This document shows positions 2,004 through 52,684 of a stretch of DNA of 57,449 bases, in pieces. The notes beneath the pieces are model-generated. The model saw nothing but the letters and a program-made list of their open reading frames with translations, searched no databases and had not been told where the DNA came from. The DNA is from an uncultured Spartobacteria bacterium (GTDB lineage Bacteria > Verrucomicrobiota > Verrucomicrobiia > Chthoniobacterales > Terrimicrobiaceae): NCBI GenBank assembly GCA_937919825.1, contig CALFPA010000024.1, forward strand, positions 1-57,449, read 5' to 3'. A program made the position numbers and the translations under genes. Numbering within the stretch: position 1 is the stretch's first letter; each line of letters starts with the position of its first letter.

Positions 2004-4660
2004 ACGAACAACTTTTACAATCCCTATATTGGCGGAGGCTTCCCCACTGTGTTGGCATGACCCGGCGGGCGGGACGCCTGCCCTGCTCCGCTCTGGGCCG
2101 ATCCCTGATTTTTTTTGGGATTTTTCTCCTCTCGGTTCTAAAGTTCCCGATTTCAGGTCTGGCAACCGACCTTGTGCGTCTCGCCGAACGGGAGGAAATC
2201 CGCCGACAGGAAAATGTCGCGAAGGCTGATAGCCTGACATTCCGCGCCGAGCGGGCTGTGAAAGATAAAAATCTCAAGCTGGCCTACACGGAGTATTTGG
2301 AGGCTTTGCGATTAATTCCGGCTGGCTCTGCCGTCTCAACGACCCGCCATGCGGTTCTTAACGATTTCAGCAAGACCGCTGTAGATTATGCGCGAAATCT
2401 TATTAAGCAAGGTAAATACTCTGAGGCTGAGAGTGTCGCAAAAACTGTTCTCTCGCAAGAATTTAACCCAAACTACAAACCGGCCGCACGCGTTCTTTCC
2501 CAGCTGGAGCAAGGCAATTTCAACACCACACTTAATCCCAAATTTACAGCCAAACGCGAGGAGGTGGAGATGCTTCTGAATCAGGCCGAGGGTTATTATG
2601 CAACTGGTCGCTTTGATTTGGCCAACAAACGATATGAGCAGGTCTTGAACTTGGATCCCTACAACATCGCCGCCCGGAACGGCATGGAGCAAGTCAATAA
2701 GCAGAGAACTTCCTACTACCAAGAGTCCTATAACGAGACACGCAGCCGCATACTCTGGTTGGCGGATCGAAAGTGGGAAAGGCCTGTTCGCAAACTTGGA
2801 AGAGGGGATCGGACTACCGAGTCTGCATCATTCGCAAGCGGCGGCCAAGCCAGCAAAGAGGCGATCCTGAAAAAGCTGAAAACCATCGTCTTGGATCGCT
2901 TGGATCTCGACGATGTCACTATTCGGGAAGCTGTCGAGATTCTAAAACAAAAAAGCCGGGACCTCGACTCCACCACCACGGACCCTAACAAGCGTGGCGT
3001 CAATATCGTGTTGAAAATCCCGAATCAACCGGCTCCGGCAATAGCAACCGAGACTGAAGGAACTGCTGAATCTACAGCTCCCAACATCACGGAAAACACC
3101 AAGATCTCCCTCAATCTGAGATATGTTCCTTTGATAGAGGCCATTCGCTATCTCACCGAGGTTTCGGCATTGAAGTCGAAAATCGAGCCATTTGCCGTTT
3201 CTCTTGTTCCAGTTACTGAAAGCACGGAAGAGCTGCTGGTAAAGGAATATCGCGTCTCCCCAGGGTTCATTCCGTCCGTCCCACCCGGCGGATCCGCGAA
3301 TATGCCGATCTCAGAAACAGGATCCAATGAAAGCGGTAATCAACGATTGACCGGTGTGCGCAATGCGACTGAATACCTGATGGAGCAAGGTGTGCCATTC
3401 CCATCCGATGCCTTTGCTCATTACATTCCCTCGGGAAGTAAATTAATTGTTCGCAATACCCAAGGGGCCTTGGATGTTGTGGATACTTTGGTGGAAGGGG
3501 ATGTCGGCGTGGCACCTACCCAAGTCGAAATTGAATCCAAATTCGTGGAAATTTCTCAAAATAATGTCAATGAACTAGGCTTTGATTGGCTCTTGGGGCC
3601 CTTCTCGATCGGAGGCGGATTCAATGGCAATGGCGGCACGCGCGGTGGAGCTAGCCCACTGAATGAAGATTATTACAATAACTTTCCCTTCGGCTCTACG
3701 GGCAGCAATCCAGTAACCGCAGGAAATCGATCGGGAATAGGAACTGATGTGGACTCCGCAATTACAGCAAACAGCATTGATTCGCTTCTTGCTGGTATTC
3801 AGCAGGGGTCCAATTTGGTCAGTCCTGGGATTTTGGGAATTGCGGGTATTTTCACCAATCCCCAGTTCCAAATGGTGATCCGTGCCCTAAGCCAACAAAA
3901 GGGTGTGGATTTGATGTCTGCCCCCAAGGTCACTACAAAAAGCGGCAATTCAGCAATAATTAAACTTGTTCGGGAATTTCCTTATCCCTCGGAGTTTGAT
4001 CCACCGGTATTGCCTGATGGAAGCAGCCCCAGTTTGCCTGATAATGAGGGCGGTGGCGTGTCGGTTGTGACAACAACAGGACAAGTCGCGCCAGCCACCC
4101 CAACAGCTTTTGAATTTCGCGATTTGGGAGTTGTTCTGGAGGTCGAGCCCCAAGTCGGTGCTGACAACTATACTATTGACCTATCCTTGACGCCCTCGGT
4201 TACTGAATTTGAGGGATTTATAAATTATGGATCTCCGATTATTGGCCCTGCATACGATCCCGGATTAATTGCTCTTGGTGATCCCTCGGGAATAGGTATA
4301 TTTACAATCACCGCCAATGTCATGAACCAGCCAGTCTTCTCGGTGCGCAAAGTCACTACCCAAGTGAGCGTGTGGGATGGTCAAACTGTTGCGTTGGGCG
4401 GTCTGATCCGAGAGGATGTGCAGAAGGTTAACGACAAGGTGCCGATTCTTGGAGACATCCCGTTAGTGGGAAGACTCTTCCGCTCCAATGTGGATCAGAA
4501 GATCAAAAAAAACCTGATAGTCTTTGTTACCGCTCGCCTTTTGGATGCATCCGGCCAGCCGCTGATCCAAGGGGATGAAGCCGAGGAAATCGTCGAGCCC
4601 TTTGGCGCACCGGAAAACCTCCCCGCCCCAAGCCTCGAAGCCCGAGCAGCCGGAAAATAA
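2000..4660 (+). CDS. Secretin, Amuc_1098-type pilus outer-membrane channel, second copy
   Basis: Full-length secretin of 886 residues. A basic N-region is followed by a hydrophobic signal segment (SLIFFGIFLLSVLKFPISGLA), a TPR region at about residues 85-250 and a periplasmic region. The C-terminal secretin domain carries NELGFDWLLG, NVMNQPVFSVRKV, GQTVALGGL and VPILGDIPLVGRLF (about 814-827). The start at 2000 is supported by the ATGA overlap with the upstream stop. Met20 (2057) is an alternative that gives a shorter signal peptide. The N-region is partly encoded by a GC-rich motif (2064-2083) that recurs in a non-coding gap near 40.8 kb. The two secretins are a tandem duplication, or subunits specialised for one machine. 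Pilus assembly partners, if any, lie left of the window. Confidence 0.88.
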   Translation: MNEQLLQSLYWRRLPHCVGMTRRAGRLPCSALGRSLIFFGIFLLSVLKFPISGLATDLVRLAEREEIRRQENVAKADSLTFRAERAVKDKNLKLAYTEYLEALRLIPAGSAVSTTRHAVLNDFSKTAVDYARNLIKQGKYSEAESVAKTVLSQEFNPNYKPAARVLSQLEQGNFNTTLNPKFTAKREEVEMLLNQAEGYYATGRFDLANKRYEQVLNLDPYNIAARNGMEQVNKQRTSYYQESYNETRSRILWLADRKWERPVRKLGRGDRTTESASFASGGQASKEAILKKLKTIVLDRLDLDDVTIREAVEILKQKSRDLDSTTTDPNKRGVNIVLKIPNQPAPAIATETEGTAESTAPNITENTKISLNLRYVPLIEAIRYLTEVSALKSKIEPFAVSLVPVTESTEELLVKEYRVSPGFIPSVPPGGSANMPISETGSNESGNQRLTGVRNATEYLMEQGVPFPSDAFAHYIPSGSKLIVRNTQGALDVVDTLVEGDVGVAPTQVEIESKFVEISQNNVNELGFDWLLGPFSIGGGFNGNGGTRGGASPLNEDYYNNFPFGSTGSNPVTAGNRSGIGTDVDSAITANSIDSLLAGIQQGSNLVSPGILGIAGIFTNPQFQMVIRALSQQKGVDLMSAPKVTTKSGNSAIIKLVREFPYPSEFDPPVLPDGSSPSLPDNEGGGVSVVTTTGQVAPATPTAFEFRDLGVVLEVEPQVGADNYTIDLSLTPSVTEFEGFINYGSPIIGPAYDPGLIALGDPSGIGIFTITANVMNQPVFSVRKVTTQVSVWDGQTVALGGLIREDVQKVNDKVPILGDIPLVGRLFRSNVDQKIKKNLIVFVTARLLDASGQPLIQGDEAEEIVEPFGAPENLPAPSLEARAAGK
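2064..2083. repeat. GC-rich motif with GGCGGGACGCC core, copy 1
   Basis: A GC-rich stretch containing GGCGGGACGCC (2068-2078). The same 11-base core occurs at 40837-40847 in a non-coding gap. Here it lies inside the signal-peptide codons of the second secretin. With two copies and a short core this is weak evidence for a dispersed element. Confidence 0.3.
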
Positions 4661-7363: not shown

Positions 7364-7453
7364 TTAACCACAGAGAACACAGAGAGCACAGAGGGCTAAA
7401 AAACATGAACTCCCAACTCCTCTTCTCCGTGTCCTCCGTGCTCTCCGTGGTTA
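7364..7453. repeat. CACAGAG-type palindromic element, copy 1
   Basis: Inverted repeat between the deoxyhypusine-synthase-like gene and metF. The left arm (7364-7395) has three 9-base units, CCACAGAGA, ACACAGAGA and GCACAGAGG (7368-7394). The right arm (about 7423-7453) is their near reverse complement and ends in GTGGTTAA. Related copies lie at 18685-18802 and 20691-20786. In RNA it would fold into a long hairpin, so it may act as a terminator or stability element, or be a non-autonomous mobile repeat. Confidence 0.8.
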
Positions 7454-15833: not shown

Positions 15834-17816
15834 ATGAACCTCGATACCACCTCTCTCGAACTCGCCGCCCGCGATGCACGCGGTCTGGCCATGGATGCCG
15901 TTGCCAAATGCAAATCCGGCCACCTCGGTCTCCCGCTTGGAGCTGCCGACATCGGCGCCGCGCTCTTCGGAGCGTCCATGTCCTTCCATCCCGCCGATCC
16001 TCGCTGGCTCAACCGCGACCGCTTTGTCCTCTCCGCAGGCCACGGCAGCATGTTCCTTTACGGCTGGCTACACCTCGCGGGCTACGGCGTGTCGTTGGAT
16101 GATCTGAAAAATTTCCGCCAACTCCACAGCATCACGCCGGGCCATCCAGAGTTTCACGAAACACCAGGCGTCGAGGCGACCACCGGCCCGCTTGGGCAGG
16201 GCGTATCGAACGCCGTGGGTTTTGCGATTTCCGGCAAGATGAGCGAGGCGCGTTTCAACACACCGACGCACCGGATTTTCGACCACCATGTCATTGCGCT
16301 CGCTGGTGACGGTTGTTTGCAGGAAGGCGTGGCCCAGGAGGCCAGCGCGCTCGCCGGCCACCTCGGTCTCGACAACCTCATTCTCATTTTTGATTCCAAC
16401 AATGTGACGCTCGACGCCATGGCGCCTGTGTCGCAGAGCGAGGACACCGCCGCGCGCTATGTGGCCCTTGGCTGGGATGTCCAGCAGATCGACGGTCACA
16501 ATCTCTCGGAAATTGCCAACGCCGTTGCCAAGGCGAAGGCCGCCACCAGCGGAAAGCCTCAATTCATCGTCGCCAAGACGATCATTGGAAAAGGCATCGC
16601 CGAAGTGTGCGGCACGAACAAGGCCCACGGCGAAGCCGGCGTGAAATTCGTCGCGGAATCCCGCAAGGCGCTTGGCCTGCCCGAGGAGACCTTTTTTGTG
16701 GCGCCGGAGACGAAAACCTATTTCGAAAAACACCGCGCGACCCTTGTAGCAGCCCATTCCGCTTGGGAAAAAACCTACTCCGCCTGGCGCTCCGACAACG
16801 CTGAACTCGCCAAGGAACTCGACGACGCCATCGAGTGCAAAGTGCCCGACCTGCTCGCCGCCATCCCTCCATTCGATCCGGCGGTGAACATCGCCACGCG
16901 CAAAGCCGGCTCCGATGTGCTCCAGCCCATTTGCGCCGCCATGCCGCTTGTAACCAGCGGCAGCGCGGATTTGCACGGCTCGACGCTGAACTACATCAAG
17001 GACGGCGGCGACTTCAACCGCCAGAACCGCTCCGGCCGCAATCTGCACTTCGGCATTCGCGAGCACGCCATGTGCGGCATCATGAATGGCATCGCCTACG
17101 ACGGCATCTTCCGCGCGAGCGGCGCGACTTTCCTCGTCTTCAGCGACTACGGCCGCCCCTCGATTCGCGTCGCCGCATTGTCGAAACTCCCGACCGTATA
17201 CATCTTCACACACGACTCCGTCGGTGTGGGCGAAGACGGCCCGACGCACGAGCCTGTGGAAACCGTGGCCGCTCTCCGAGCCATTCCCGGCCTCGATGTG
17301 ATTCGTCCCGCCGATCCCGAGGAAACCGCCGGTGCGTTTGCCGCTGCGTTCCAGAAAAATGACGGCCCCACGATGCTGGTTCTCTGCCGCCAAAACATCC
17401 CGACGCTCAATGCCATTCCACTCCAGGAGCGGCGCGAGGGCGTTCTTCGCGGCGGCTACATCGCCAAAAAAGAAACCGCGAAACTCGAGACAATCCTTCT
17501 CGCAACGGGCAGTGAACTCCAACACGCCCTCAAAGCCGCCGACGAACTCGGCGCAGGAACTCGCGTTGTCTCGATGCCATGCTTCGAGCGCTTCGAGCGC
17601 CAGAGCGCCGACTACAAAGAAAGCGTCCTGCCGAAATCCTGCCGCAAACGCGTCTCGATCGAAGCTGGCATTTCCGATCCGTGGTTCCGATATGTCGGCC
17701 TCGATGGAAAAGCTGTCGCCATCGACCGCTTCGGCCTCAGCGCGCCTGGAAATATCGTGATGGAACAACTCGGCATGACCGCCGCCAAGGTGATCGAAGC
17801 CGCGAAGTCGCTTTGA
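15834..17816 (+). CDS. tkt: Transketolase
   Basis: Thiamine-diphosphate enzyme that moves two-carbon units between sugar phosphates in the pentose phosphate pathway. Length 660, normal. Motifs in order: [49 protein letters not shown], the ThDP motif [16 protein letters not shown]...[25 protein letters not shown] with the catalytic Glu, and [17 protein letters not shown]. The start at 15834 ([17 protein letters not shown]) is chosen because the family begins there. It stands alone; a palindromic repeat follows 25 bases after its stop. Confidence 0.96.
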
Positions 17817-17840: not shown

Positions 17841-17916
17841 AGGAGGGCTCTGCTTGTCAGAGCCGCAACAGTCAGGTTGCGAAAGCCGCCGCTATCCTTA
17901 CAAGCAGGCCCCTCCT
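17841..17916. repeat. 76-bp AGGAGGG palindromic element, copy 1
   Basis: Arms of about 20 bases (17841-17862 and 17896-17916), starting AGGAGGG and ending CCCCTCCT with CTTGTCAG/CTTACAAG inside, surround a loop containing TTGCGAAAGCC. A second copy of exactly the same length lies at 51352-51427. Stem bases vary in both arms while pairing is mostly kept. It is probably a REP-like dispersed hairpin. Confidence 0.82.
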
Positions 17917-17943: not shown

Positions 17944-18672
17944 ATGCCCTCGTTGAACGACCGCGAGATGGTTCGGCGCAAGGCCGAGGAATTCGAAGGC
18001 GCGAGCCTGCGCGAAATCCTCGCTTGGGCCTGGGAGACTTTCGGCGAGCGCGCGGCGTTCGGCACGAGCTTTCAAGGCGCGGGCCTCGTCGCCATGCACA
18101 CCGCCTACACCAACGGATTCCGCTTCCCGGTTTTCACCATCGACACCGGCCTTCTCTTCCCCGAAACGCTCGAATTGAAAACCCAAATCGAATCCCGTTT
18201 GGGCATCTCGATTGAATCCCTGCATCCCGAGCAAACCGTCGCCGAGCAGGCTGCCGAACTCGGTCCCGAGCTTTGGAAAACTAAGCCCGACCTGTGCTGT
18301 TCGCTCCGAAAGGTCATTCCTCTCCAAAAAAAACTCGCCACGCTCGATGTCTGGATCACCGGTCTTCGCCGCCAGCAAAACGACACGCGAGAGAACACCC
18401 GCATCGTCGAGCTTTACCACTTCGATGTCCTCCGCGACCGCTACATCATCAAATTGAATCCCATGGCCTCATGGTCCCGCGACCAAGTCCAGGCCTACAT
18501 CCGCGAGCACGACCTCCCCGTCAACGCCCTAGCCGCGCGCGGCTACCGCTCGATCGGTTGCCAACCCTGCACACGCCCTGTGGCCGACGGCGAAAGCGAG
18601 CGCGCCGGCCGCTGGACCGGCTTCGACAAAAGCGAATGCGGCATCCACACCTTCCTCGGGAACAACATTTGA
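17944..18672 (+). CDS. cysH: Adenylyl-sulfate (APS) reductase, Fe-S type CysH
   Basis: Assimilatory sulfate reduction: reduces APS to sulfite with thioredoxin as donor. The protein has 242 residues. SFQGAGLVAMH and the FTIDTGLLFPET block belong to the PAPS/APS reductase fold. Cys118-Cys119 (PDLCCSLRK) and Cys206/Cys209 (GCQPC) are the four [4Fe-4S] ligands that mark the APS-using type, and Cys232 in ECGIH is the catalytic cysteine. The ATG at 17944 is chosen: an upstream TTG at 17854 would put the palindromic repeat inside the coding region and add 30 residues that do not fit. No other sulfate genes are nearby. Confidence 0.93.
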   Translation: MPSLNDREMVRRKAEEFEGASLREILAWAWETFGERAAFGTSFQGAGLVAMHTAYTNGFRFPVFTIDTGLLFPETLELKTQIESRLGISIESLHPEQTVAEQAAELGPELWKTKPDLCCSLRKVIPLQKKLATLDVWITGLRRQQNDTRENTRIVELYHFDVLRDRYIIKLNPMASWSRDQVQAYIREHDLPVNALAARGYRSIGCQPCTRPVADGESERAGRWTGFDKSECGIHTFLGNNI

Positions 18673-18684
18673 CGCCGACTGAGG

Positions 18685-18802
18685 GATTGACCACAGAGGA
18701 CACAGAGAGCACAGAGAATTTCTAACGGAATTGTTTTATGCGAAATTCCTCCCTCAAAGCTCTTCTCCCCTCCGTGTGCTCTGTGTCCTCTGTGGTCAAT
18801 TC
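18685..18802. repeat. CACAGAG-type palindromic element, copy 2
   Basis: Left arm 18685-18720 starts GATTGACCACAGAG; right arm 18770-18802 ends CTCTGTGGTCAATTC, its near reverse complement. It begins 12 bases after the cysH stop and ends 6 bases before the next start, so it fills the whole intergenic space. Confidence 0.8.
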
Positions 18803-20695: not shown

Positions 20696-20786
20696 CCACG
20701 GAGGCACGGAGGGCACTTTGAATCAAGGAAGAATTGCACTCGCTCTCTTGATTTTCCTCTGTGCTCTCGGTGTCCTCTGTGGTCAA
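20691..20786. repeat. CACAGAG-type palindromic element, copy 3
   Basis: Left arm ATTAACCACGGAGG... (20691-20716), right arm ending CTCTGTGGTCAA (20756-20786). It starts on the methyltransferase stop codon and ends 15 bases before trmL. It is the most diverged of the three copies. Confidence 0.75.
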
Positions 20787-49234: not shown

Positions 49235-51321
49235 AAAACAAACCCTCCTGCTGCCACGGAGCGGAAAAACCCACTCCCGCCTCGTCGGCGAAGTTTTTCT
49301 GTCCGATGTGCCCCGGCGTAGTGAGCGATTCACCCGCAAATTGCCCGAAGTGCGGGATGCCGCTGGAACGAAATCCACTTTTCGCCGAGGAAACTCCCGA
49401 CCCGCTCTTGCGCAACTTCACGCGCCGCTTTGCGGTCAGCCTGGTTTTTACGATCCCACTTTTTGTTTTAGCGATGGCGCACATGGTTCCCGGTTTGGCT
49501 CATGTGCATTGGCTGGATAGCGAGGTGGCGAGGTTCGCCCAATTTCTCCTCAGCCTGCCAGTCGTTCTCTGGTGTGGCGCACCACTCTGGAAAGCCGGGT
49601 TCCAATCGATCCGCCGCCTGTCGCCAAACATGTTCACGCTCGTTCTGATTGGAGTGGGTGCGGCGTGGATCTTTAGCGTCGTGGCAGTTTTTGCCCCGGG
49701 AGAAAAGCCAGCCCTCTATTTCGAAGCCGCGGCCGTCATCACCGTCCTCGTCCTCCTCGGCCAAATCCTCGAACTCCGCGCCCGCGAAAAAACCGCCGGA
49801 GCCATCAAATCCCTCCTCGCCCTCTCGCCAAAGACTGCCCGCCTTATCGATGCCGGCACCGAGCGCGACATTCCCCTCACGGAAGTGAAACCCGGTGATC
49901 TGCTTCGCGTGAGGCCCGGCGAGAAAATCCCCGTGGATGGAATCCTCGCCGAAGGCTCAAGCTCGATCGACGAATCGATGCTCACCGGGGAGGCTTTTCC
50001 TGTTGAAAAAAACACCGGCGCCCAAGTTACCGGCGGAACCCTCAACACCACCGGCTCGTTTGTTATGCGCGCCGAGCACACCGGCTCCGAAACCGTTCTG
50101 GCCCGCATCATCGCGCTCGTTAGCGAGTCCCAACGCAGCCGCGCACCGGTCCAAAACCTCGCCGACAAAGTCTCGGCCTGGTTCGTGCCCGCCGTGCTTG
50201 GCATTTCCTTGCTCACATTCGCCGCGTGGATGGTGTTCGACCAAAATCTCCCGCTTGCGCTCACGAATGCCGTCTCGGTTCTCATCATCGCTTGCCCGTG
50301 CGCTCTGGGCCTCGCCACGCCCATGAGCGTGATGGTGGGGATGGGCCGCGGCGCCTCGCTCGGCATCCTTTTCCGCAATGCCGCCGTGATGCAAAACCTC
50401 GCCCGCCTCGACATCCTCGCGGTGGACAAAACCGGCACGCTCACCGAGGGGAAACCCCGTCTCGTTCGCTGCGTTCCGGCGGGAGGTTTTGGCGAAGACG
50501 AGCTTTTGACTGCAGCCGCCAGTCTGGAATCCGCGAGCGAGCATCCACTCGCCCGCGCGGTGGTGAATGCCGCCACAGACCGGAAGCTCGCACCAAAACC
50601 TCCCTCGAATGTTCAAACCAAAACCTCCCTCGGGATAACCGGCACGGTCGATGGACGCACAGTCGCCGTCGGGAAAATCGAGTTCCTGCAAAACCTCGGC
50701 ATCCCGTGCCCAACCCTCCCCGAATCGAATGCCACGGCGCTTGCGGTTGGTATCGAGGGGCGCTTCGCAGGTTTTTTGGAGGTTGCGGATTCGATCAAAT
50801 CCTCGACACCCGAGGCCATTCATGAACTCCGCGCGATGGGTGTGCGGCTTGTTTTGCTTACAGGCGACCACCCGCGCGTTGCCAATGCCGTGGCCACGCC
50901 CCTCGGCATCGATGAGGTCCACGCGAATATCACGCCCGAGGAAAAACACCGCCTCGTCGCGGGTCTAAAATCCCCCGGCCGCATCGTGGGCATGGCGGGC
51001 GATGGCATCAACGACGCCCCGGCTCTTGCCGCTGCAGATGTCGGAATCGCGATGGGCAGCGGCACCGACATCGCCATCGAGAGCGCCGGCGTTACGCTTG
51101 TTAAAGGCGACCTCCGTGCCATCACCCGCGCGGTGAAACTCTCCCGCGCCATGATGCGAAACATCCGCCAAAACCTCGCCTTTGCCTTTGCCTACAACGC
51201 GCTCGGCATTCCACTCGCCGCCACCGGGCTCCTCCACCCCATGATCGCCGCCTTGGCCATGAGCCTTAGCTCGGTTTCTGTGATCACCAACGCCCTCCGC
51301 CTTCGGAGCGTCCGCCTATGA
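49231..51321 (+). CDS. copA: Copper/silver-exporting P1B-type ATPase
   Basis: Inner-membrane ATPase that exports Cu(I) or Ag(I). The protein has 696 residues with a TTG start that overlaps the cdd stop. Instead of an HMA domain it has a Cys-rich N-terminus (CCHG, then [25 protein letters not shown]). The metal-binding CPC is in [14 protein letters not shown] (about residue 355). The phosphorylated Asp is in [13 protein letters not shown] (about 399); SEHPLARAV and [24 protein letters not shown] complete the catalytic domains. The 3' membrane pair is [23 protein letters not shown]. No copper regulator or chaperone gene is adjacent. Confidence 0.93.
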
Positions 51322-51351
51322 TCGAAGTATCCGAATTGCCACCGAACGCCC

Positions 51352-51427
51352 AGGAGGGACCTGCTTGTCAGGTCCGGAGCGGTGTGTTTGCGAAAGCCAC
51401 CTCGGTCCTGACAAGCAGGACCCTCCT
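51352..51427. repeat. 76-bp AGGAGGG palindromic element, copy 2
   Basis: Arms at 51352-51375 and 51404-51427, with CCTGCTTGTCAGG and CCTGACAAGCAGG as inner parts, surround the same TTGCGAAAGCC loop as copy 1 at 17841. Pairing is nearly perfect in this copy. It lies between copA and the flavoprotein gene. Confidence 0.85.
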
Positions 51428-51463
51428 CGCGAAGCGTAATGGCAGGCTTCTCGTTGATTTCCT

Positions 51464-52684
51464 ATGACCGGCCCCAAAACAATCCTCGTGGTCGGCGGTG
51501 GCGCAGCGGGTTTTTTTGGAGCCATCGCCGCAGCCGAGGCCGATCCGCGCACCAGCGTGACCATTTTAGAAAAAACCCGCCATGTCCTCGCGAAGGTTCG
51601 CATCTCGGGCGGCGGACGCTGCAATGTCACCCACGCTTGCTTCGACCCGCGCGAGCTTTCTCAACGCTACCCGCGCGGCGGCCGCGCTCTCATCGGACCG
51701 TTCACTCGCTTCGGCCCGCGCGAGACGATCGAGTGGTTCCGCCTGCGCGGCGTGAACCTGAAAACCGAGGCTGATGGACGGATGTTTCCCGTTACTGATT
51801 CCTCACAATCGATCATCGATTGCCTTACAGACTCTGCCACAAACGCCGGAGTTCGCATCCTCACCCAGACTGGCGTTGAGACGATTTCGCGCTCTGACGA
51901 TGGGAGCTTTTCGGTCACCCTGACCACCGGCGAAATCCTCGCGTGTGACCGCATTCTTTGGGCCGCCGGTGGATGTCGTGCCGAGAATCATCCGCTGGTT
52001 CCCCTCGGCCACAAACTCGTCCCGCCCGTGCCCTCGCTGTTTACCTTCCACATCGACTCTCCGTGGCTGCGCGAACTGCCGGGAGTTTCCGTCGAACATG
52101 TCGAAGTCTCCGTGCCAAGAACCTCCCTGAAACAACGCGGCCCGCTTTTGGTGACCCACGCTGGCGTGAGCGGGCCCGCGATCCTGCGCTTGTCCGCGTG
52201 GGGCGCTCGCGAACTCCACGAGCGGGATTATCGCTTTCCGCTCCGCATCCAATGGCTCCCTGGCGAGAAACCCGAGGTTTTGGCTGAGGAAATCCAGCGC
52301 CGCCGCGAGACCCAAGGCGGGCAGACCGTCCTGCGTGCACGCTGGAATCCCCTTCCCGCGAGACTTTGGGAACAACTCGTCCTGCAGTCGGGCATCGCGC
52401 CTGAAACCAAATGGTCCCGCCTCGCCAAGCCCGACGCCCAGCGATTGGTCGCGCTCCTCACCGCCACCGAACTCCCCGTCACCGGCAAAAGCATGAACAA
52501 AGAGGAATTCGTCACCTGCGGCGGCATTCCACTGCCGGAGGTCGATTTCAAAACCATGCAAAGCCGCCTCGTTCCAGGCCTGCATCTCGCCGGCGAAGCG
52601 CTCGACATCGACGGCATCACTGGCGGCTTCAACTTTCAAGCCGCCTGGACCACCGCTTGGACTGCCGGCCAAAACCTCGCTTAG
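51464..52684 (+). CDS. HI0933-family FAD-dependent oxidoreductase (YhiN-like)
   Basis: Flavoprotein of 406 residues of the HI0933/BaiN group. The FAD-binding motif is ILVVGGGAAGFFGAIAAAE; KVRISGGGRCNVTHA is the family signature, followed by RILWAAGGCR. A middle domain with GPLLVTHAGVSGPAILRLS and a C-terminal return to the FAD domain (TCGGIPLPEVDFKTMQS, LHLAGEALDIDGITGGFNFQAAW) follow. The biological reaction of most members is unknown. The gene follows a palindromic repeat and ends 35 bases before a convergent gene. Confidence 0.93.
   Translation: MTGPKTILVVGGGAAGFFGAIAAAEADPRTSVTILEKTRHVLAKVRISGGGRCNVTHACFDPRELSQRYPRGGRALIGPFTRFGPRETIEWFRLRGVNLKTEADGRMFPVTDSSQSIIDCLTDSATNAGVRILTQTGVETISRSDDGSFSVTLTTGEILACDRILWAAGGCRAENHPLVPLGHKLVPPVPSLFTFHIDSPWLRELPGVSVEHVEVSVPRTSLKQRGPLLVTHAGVSGPAILRLSAWGARELHERDYRFPLRIQWLPGEKPEVLAEEIQRRRETQGGQTVLRARWNPLPARLWEQLVLQSGIAPETKWSRLAKPDAQRLVALLTATELPVTGKSMNKEEFVTCGGIPLPEVDFKTMQSRLVPGLHLAGEALDIDGITGGFNFQAAWTTAWTAGQNLA

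Follow-up and report, generated by a model that had tools for sequence, protein, structure and literature searches.

A GGAG-footed, REPIN-like palindromic element, probably an orphan, in genomes of Terrimicrobiaceae

Two copies of a 76-bp palindrome

The window analysed in this study, the whole 57,449-nt stretch of DNA from an uncultured Spartobacteria bacterium of the Terrimicrobiaceae, a family of Verrucomicrobiota, contains two copies of a 76-bp palindrome, at positions 17841-17916 (copy A) and 51352-51427 (copy B). An earlier note on this DNA had described the pair, and its description holds: the copies are equal in length, start with AGGAGGG, end with CCCTCCT, have TTGCGAAAGCC in common and are intergenic, with gene neighbours on either side. 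Copy A lies 24 nt after a transketolase gene (ending at 17816) and 27 nt before a phosphoadenylylsulfate reductase gene (starting at 17944), and copy B is situated between the genes of a heavy-metal P-type ATPase (ending at 51321, 30 nt away) and of an FAD enzyme (starting at 51464, 36 nt away). Both copies fold better than any of 200 dinucleotide-shuffled versions, whichever strand is taken (z -3.8 to -8.4).

Copy A (forward strand, as set by its linker; covariance model score 75.2 bits) has an intact left arm at 17841-17864 (forward), a REP-like hairpin with an AGGAG foot, a 7-bp stem and a CTTGT loop, followed by a linker with GTTGCGAAAGCC at 17865-17892 (forward) and an inverted REP-like right arm at 17893-17916 (reverse), whose stem is partly decayed relative to the orthologue at locus L088 of a second genome, G006. 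Copy B (forward strand; 97.7 bits) has intact hairpins in its left arm at 51352-51375 (forward), which is of the NC type usually found on the right, and in its right arm at 51404-51427 (reverse), with a linker containing GTTTGCGAAAGCC between them at 51376-51403 (forward). Its left flank (51344-51351, unstranded), ending in GCCC, and its right flank (51428-51436, unstranded), reading CGCGAAGCG, represent the two sides of a recurrent flank motif.

Other repeats are present in the window. A second repeat, GACCACAGAGGACACAGAG, occurs in inverted pairs at 7366-7393, 18689-18797 and 20766-20784, with five matches at up to two mismatches compared to none in shuffles, and the gap corresponding to that of copy A is filled by related repeats in G109, G055 and G137. 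The 9-mer CAAAACCTC is found at 21 places between 1603 and 55521 (for example at 50594 and 50619), where 0.76 would be expected, and recurs 113 times across 880,765 bases of other loci, which overlap one another; it may be an uptake, segregation or repair signal.

Distribution of the family

The earlier note suggested a REP/MITE-type family, to be doubted if the genome held only the two copies; 17 sites were found in this genome (G000) and 73 in the genus, and the suggestion was right. A BLAST search with copy A as query identified 15 places in G000, and the arm pattern GGGNNCTGCTTGTCAGNNCC was found there at 32 places with up to two mismatches (26 of them exact), compared to none for the reversed pattern. 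At up to one mismatch, 17 of the 197 genomes of the order contained the arm pattern, with counts of 28 in G000, 27 in G006, 37 in G073 and 2 in G125; the other 13 genomes had one match each, and the reversed control pattern also gives single matches in several genomes of the order. A covariance model built from 32 copies matched five of the 16 genomes of the genus, the family being absent by this model from the remaining 11, and with one entry per place the 73 sites are divided among G000 (17), G006 (17), G073 (37), G125 (1) and G084 (1).

Among 84,980 named species, a collection that may not include the window's own genome, the exact paired pattern was found in 12 stretches belonging to only three related assemblies, Verrucomicrobia bacterium LacPavin_0818_WC45_MAG_58_13 (6), REEB449 (5) and Terrimicrobiaceae bacterium HJW.13 (1). 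No match to the family was identified in viral contigs, plasmids or phages, and Rfam gave no match within the window. The family thus occurs in multiple copies and is restricted to a small number of related species.

Structure and covariation of the arms

Each 24-nt arm reads A-GGAG-GGxyCTG-CTTGT-CAGy'x'CC and is a hairpin by itself, both arms having a 7-bp stem, a 5-nt loop (CTTGT) and the foot AGGAG directly 5' of the stem. The common unit is an inverted doublet with a spacer; the first loci examined contained 36 two-armed elements, each 76-77 nt long. The arms are unequal: when the unit is oriented by its linker, xy is mostly CT or CG on the left and mostly NC on the right.

The statement that stem changes keep pairing is true within each arm, where 129 of 144 variable-position pairs in the 36 elements are Watson-Crick, but fails between the arms (41 of 144). 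In the alignment of 32 copies, pairing in the intra-arm helices is 94.6%, compared to 85.4% in shuffles; two-sided changes number 39 (10.8 in shuffles), and their covariation score of 0.220 (0.061 in shuffles) was reached by none of 500 shuffles, a significance that is overstated because the copies are kin. Slid versions of these helices fall to 32-46% pairing. The inter-arm helix shows nothing beyond the shared consensus, with 88.0% paired compared to 87.5% and 9 two-sided cells compared to 8.4, and this contrast between intra- and inter-arm structure on the same alignment is a stronger argument than the shuffle significance. It is the two small hairpins that covary; a single long hairpin was therefore rejected as the conserved structure for want of inter-arm covariation, although it is the predicted more stable DNA fold in 26 of the 32 copies, which counts against the two-hairpin reading.

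These patterns bear on two alternative explanations. A classical MITE, in which terminal inverted repeats are read as duplex DNA by a DDE transposase, would agree with a compact unit that has 24-nt inverted ends and no coding capacity for a transposase of its own; however, duplex recognition does not predict bases that are free but compensated, and the covariation observed is confined to the individual arms. A MITE is considered unlikely. A protein-binding dyad that is not mobile at all, such as a nucleoid or regulator site, might be proposed from the near-invariant core CTGCTTGTCAG, which forms a dyad of fixed spacing. A site of this kind would not predict that pairs at two stem positions vary freely with compensation, that copies occur in coding frames or that the family is confined to a few species, and we regard it as very improbable.

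Copies between genes and change in place

The 55 intergenic copies are distributed over 33 tandem, 21 convergent and 1 divergent gaps. Among the remaining gaps, counted from a length of 20 nt upwards, the numbers are 76, 10 and 11, which gives p 0.0001 for the convergent and p 0.06 for the divergent class. These classes derive from a heuristic home-made gene caller that may have counted the menE copy as tandem after missing the gene. The same preference for tandem and convergent gaps has been reported for REPs in the available part of PMC3733652.

Ten sites, out of 17 in each genome, are common to G000 and G006, so that the copies of these sister species occupy partly different sites. Eight of the ten are colinear. 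At the other two, copy B (51352-51427) with L181 and L020 with L086, the elements have opposite orientations and diverged linkers, the linker at the G006 orthologue of copy B running the opposite way, which suggests replacement, inversion in place, conversion or re-insertion. Across seven colinear 76-nt pairs, the arms differ at 14 of 336 positions, the linkers at 13 of 196 and the 150-nt flanks at 157 of 2097; the arms do not differ significantly from the linkers (p 0.22) and change slightly less than the flanks (p 0.03). Family-wide, the arms differ by 5.4% (with the variable xy positions set aside) and the linkers by 39.8%, the arms thus being about sevenfold more uniform. As judged from only seven pairs, the uniformity of the arms would appear to come from copying history and not from conservation of resident copies.

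The earlier note's other suggestion, a selected RNA hairpin, is disfavoured by this comparison. A hairpin in the 3'-UTR, kept at the ends of convergent and tandem genes to terminate transcription or protect the mRNA, would account for the gap bias, for the strong folding of both window copies and for arms that change slightly less than their flanks. It would not account for arms that are no more conserved in place than the linker between them, for the absence by model of the family from most congeners, or for copies inside reading frames, where such a role is not available, and a host-selected RNA element is therefore considered unlikely. A mobile element is preferred to a host RNA hairpin mainly because the arms are uniform across the family without being conserved in place.

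Copies within genes

Copies also occur within genes, in the reading frames of proteins that look intact. There are eight distinct loci of this kind, and 4 of the 17 sites in G000 are intragenic and in frame. The interrupted genes are those of an exonuclease-DNA ligase fusion (G000 and G006), menE (G000), menD (G000 and G006), ygfZ (G000 and G006, with one arm decayed), valS (G006), a heavy-metal ATPase (G073), gcvP (G073) and a PknB-like kinase (G125, decayed in G084). The reading phase is identical at all eight loci. The two open phases lack stops with similar frequency (on the two strands, 32 and 26 of the 32 copies in phase 1, and 24 and 28 of the 32 in phase 2), so that the probability of eight out of eight by chance is approximately 0.006.

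Compared to G000, the valS product of G006 is 28 residues longer at the insert point and the gcvP product of G073 is also 28 residues longer, and congeners with uninterrupted valS and gcvP lack the copy that the one species carries. The uninterrupted relative of the metal ATPase is too diverged to fix the length of its insert. Judged from the limits of profile matches, six of the inserts lie between annotated domains or outside the catalytic domain, while those in menE and the ATPase lie inside a domain match. Comparison with solved structures shows that the E. coli enzyme has its own residues in the stretch that holds the menD insert, and a clean insertion is therefore not claimed for menD.

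Different palindromes are found in G006 at two of these points. The gcvP point (L215) has a GTAG-headed palindrome coding VGQASRLP...GRDARAT, and the menE point (L199) has another palindrome that differs from the 76-nt element, with both palindromes in frame and the frame left open; the two points are thus read as re-used insertion spots.

Flanks and element ends

The bases next to the element share a motif across 38 non-orthologous two-ended sites: one side has CGCNNNGCG and the other GGGC or GAGT. The EM score of this motif is 338.6, whereas 40 nulls averaged 156.3 (sd 12.9) and did not exceed 200.9. This motif may be part of the mobile unit or of its target. A target preference gains some weight from the CGCAAGG present at the insert point in valS of some uninterrupted congeners, although it is absent there in the sister G000. 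The exact ends of the element are uncertain, since the flank motifs recur and valS and gcvP are longer by a net 84 nt rather than 76. Inspection by eye of valS and gcvP, where the junctions are diverged, showed no target duplication of the kind that a MITE might have left.

Transposases and related repeats

The earlier note proposed looking for a REP-associated transposase; one is present, but it is flanked by a different repeat. The single Y1 transposase in G000 is an apparently complete RAYT (L021:1164-2042, contig C123) with GTAG-headed repeats on both sides, about 20 dispersed relatives or pieces of which occur in the genome. In a transposase search directed at the IS200-like type, none of the 10 Y1 loci in the four main carriers (G000, G006, G073 and G125) is flanked by GGAG arms, and the G006 copy that lies about 1.15 kb from the Y1 region is simply the insert in valS. 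The resident RAYT is unsupported as the cognate enzyme, its flanking repeats being GTAG-headed in G000, G006 and G073, and the congeners G024 and G093 have a RAYT of the same kind without GGAG elements. GGAG was also rejected as a general tag of hairpins: among 51 perfect hairpins in 427,813 bases of loci outside the elements (the loci overlap, and identical hairpins were counted once), one was preceded by GGAG, compared to 10 by GTAG.

A REP-associated tyrosine transposase domain was also observed in frame inside tRNA synthetase reading frames. In valS of G006 (L077:2223-5666) it covers residues 559-657 of 1148, with GTAG hairpins on either side (L077:3559 and 4228-4260), and leuS has such a domain in G113 (L048:106-3231) and G137 (L055:1-2640).

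The search rules for RAYT-associated REPs in the available text of PMC6006769 specify a hairpin with a stem of 7-20 bp, a loop of 2-5 nt and GTAG or GTGG 0-2 nt to its 5' side. The present arms agree with these rules in stem, in loop and in having a foot that ends in AG beside the stem, but the GTAG/GTGG head is absent, AGGAG preceding the stem instead, and none of the 10 Y1 loci is flanked by these arms. The resemblance to the REPIN/BIME arrangement, as far as the available part of PMC3116915 describes it, includes two inverted REP hairpins with a spacer, doublets that are commoner than intact singlets, and singlets that look like remnants; the differences are a GGAG foot in place of GTAG/GTGG, the lack of a RAYT with matching flanks, and copies in the tens instead of the hundreds. 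The same text suggests that a RAYT reads a 'clover' form with two hairpins, and it is in this form that the covariation of the present family lies. The unequal arms recall the Y and Z2 REPs of E. coli in the portion of PMC2817692 consulted.

The GTAG- and CGTC-tagged repeats in the available part of PMC3733652 share with the present family the phylum and the preference for tandem and convergent gaps, and the CGTC repeats are likewise without a dedicated transposase. In-frame intragenic REP dimers coding 20 to 30 residues have already been published there for Opitutus terrae (Verrucomicrobiota). The present family, however, has neither tag, a different sequence and one phase in all eight intragenic loci; it ends in AGGAGGG/CCCTCCT, not in the CGTC of the CGTC-tagged REP/RPE, with which it shares insertion into genes in frame. 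Rickettsia palindromic elements (RPEs), as compared in the same partial source, are also palindromes in frame in genes that probably still work, but the RPEs in that comparison are CGTC-tagged and belong to another lineage and sequence. The TnpAREP substrates of E. coli, S. maltophilia and Marinomonas in the part of PMC8266576 available likewise consist of a short hairpin beside a tetranucleotide ending in AG, and these enzymes differ in their tolerance of head changes; a GGAG head with a CTTGT loop is not among the substrates in that part. No word beginning with GGAG occurs in the main texts of PMC3733652, PMC2817692 and PMC6006769, and the literature search returned no publication recognised as dealing with the present GGAG-footed family.

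Interpretation and significance

The 76-nt element is probably a small non-autonomous mobile element resembling a REPIN or BIME, in which two inverted REP-like hairpins are joined by a short linker. It was not filed as a RAYT-associated REP, since both the head and the association with a RAYT were tested for and were lacking; on the best reading it is an orphan, GGAG-footed, REPIN-like element that works like a REPIN. We infer that the unit would move through single-stranded DNA, with a Y1 HUH (TnpAREP-like) enzyme supplied in trans reading the folded arms and cutting and rejoining at the edges, and that GGAG may take the guide role held by GTAG in ordinary REPs. Selection for pairing would act at the step where the enzyme reads the arms, which would explain covariation without conservation in place. 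The surviving copies would be those in the least harmful places, either at gene ends or in frame and mostly between protein domains, and the cognate enzyme may have been lost from the present genomes or may be unrecognised in them.

A broader possibility, put forward tentatively and with less than even confidence, is that GGAG marks a third tag class of REP-like element beside GTAG and CGTC, one that would spread in two-hairpin form with no RAYT dedicated to it. Such a class would repeatedly add the same kind of peptide of about 26 residues (xEGSACQSR...PALTSRALL), in one phase, to core enzymes, mostly between domains and at spots that other palindrome families also use.

The family separates two pressures that are easily confounded in REPs, the family-wide conservation of arms that reflects mobility and the in-place conservation that reflects host function. 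In addition, natural in-frame insertions with close uninterrupted relatives make the neutrality of the added peptide directly testable in valyl-tRNA synthetase or glycine dehydrogenase, and the orphan foot offers a way to test which enzyme is responsible for moving REP-like repeats without the usual tag.
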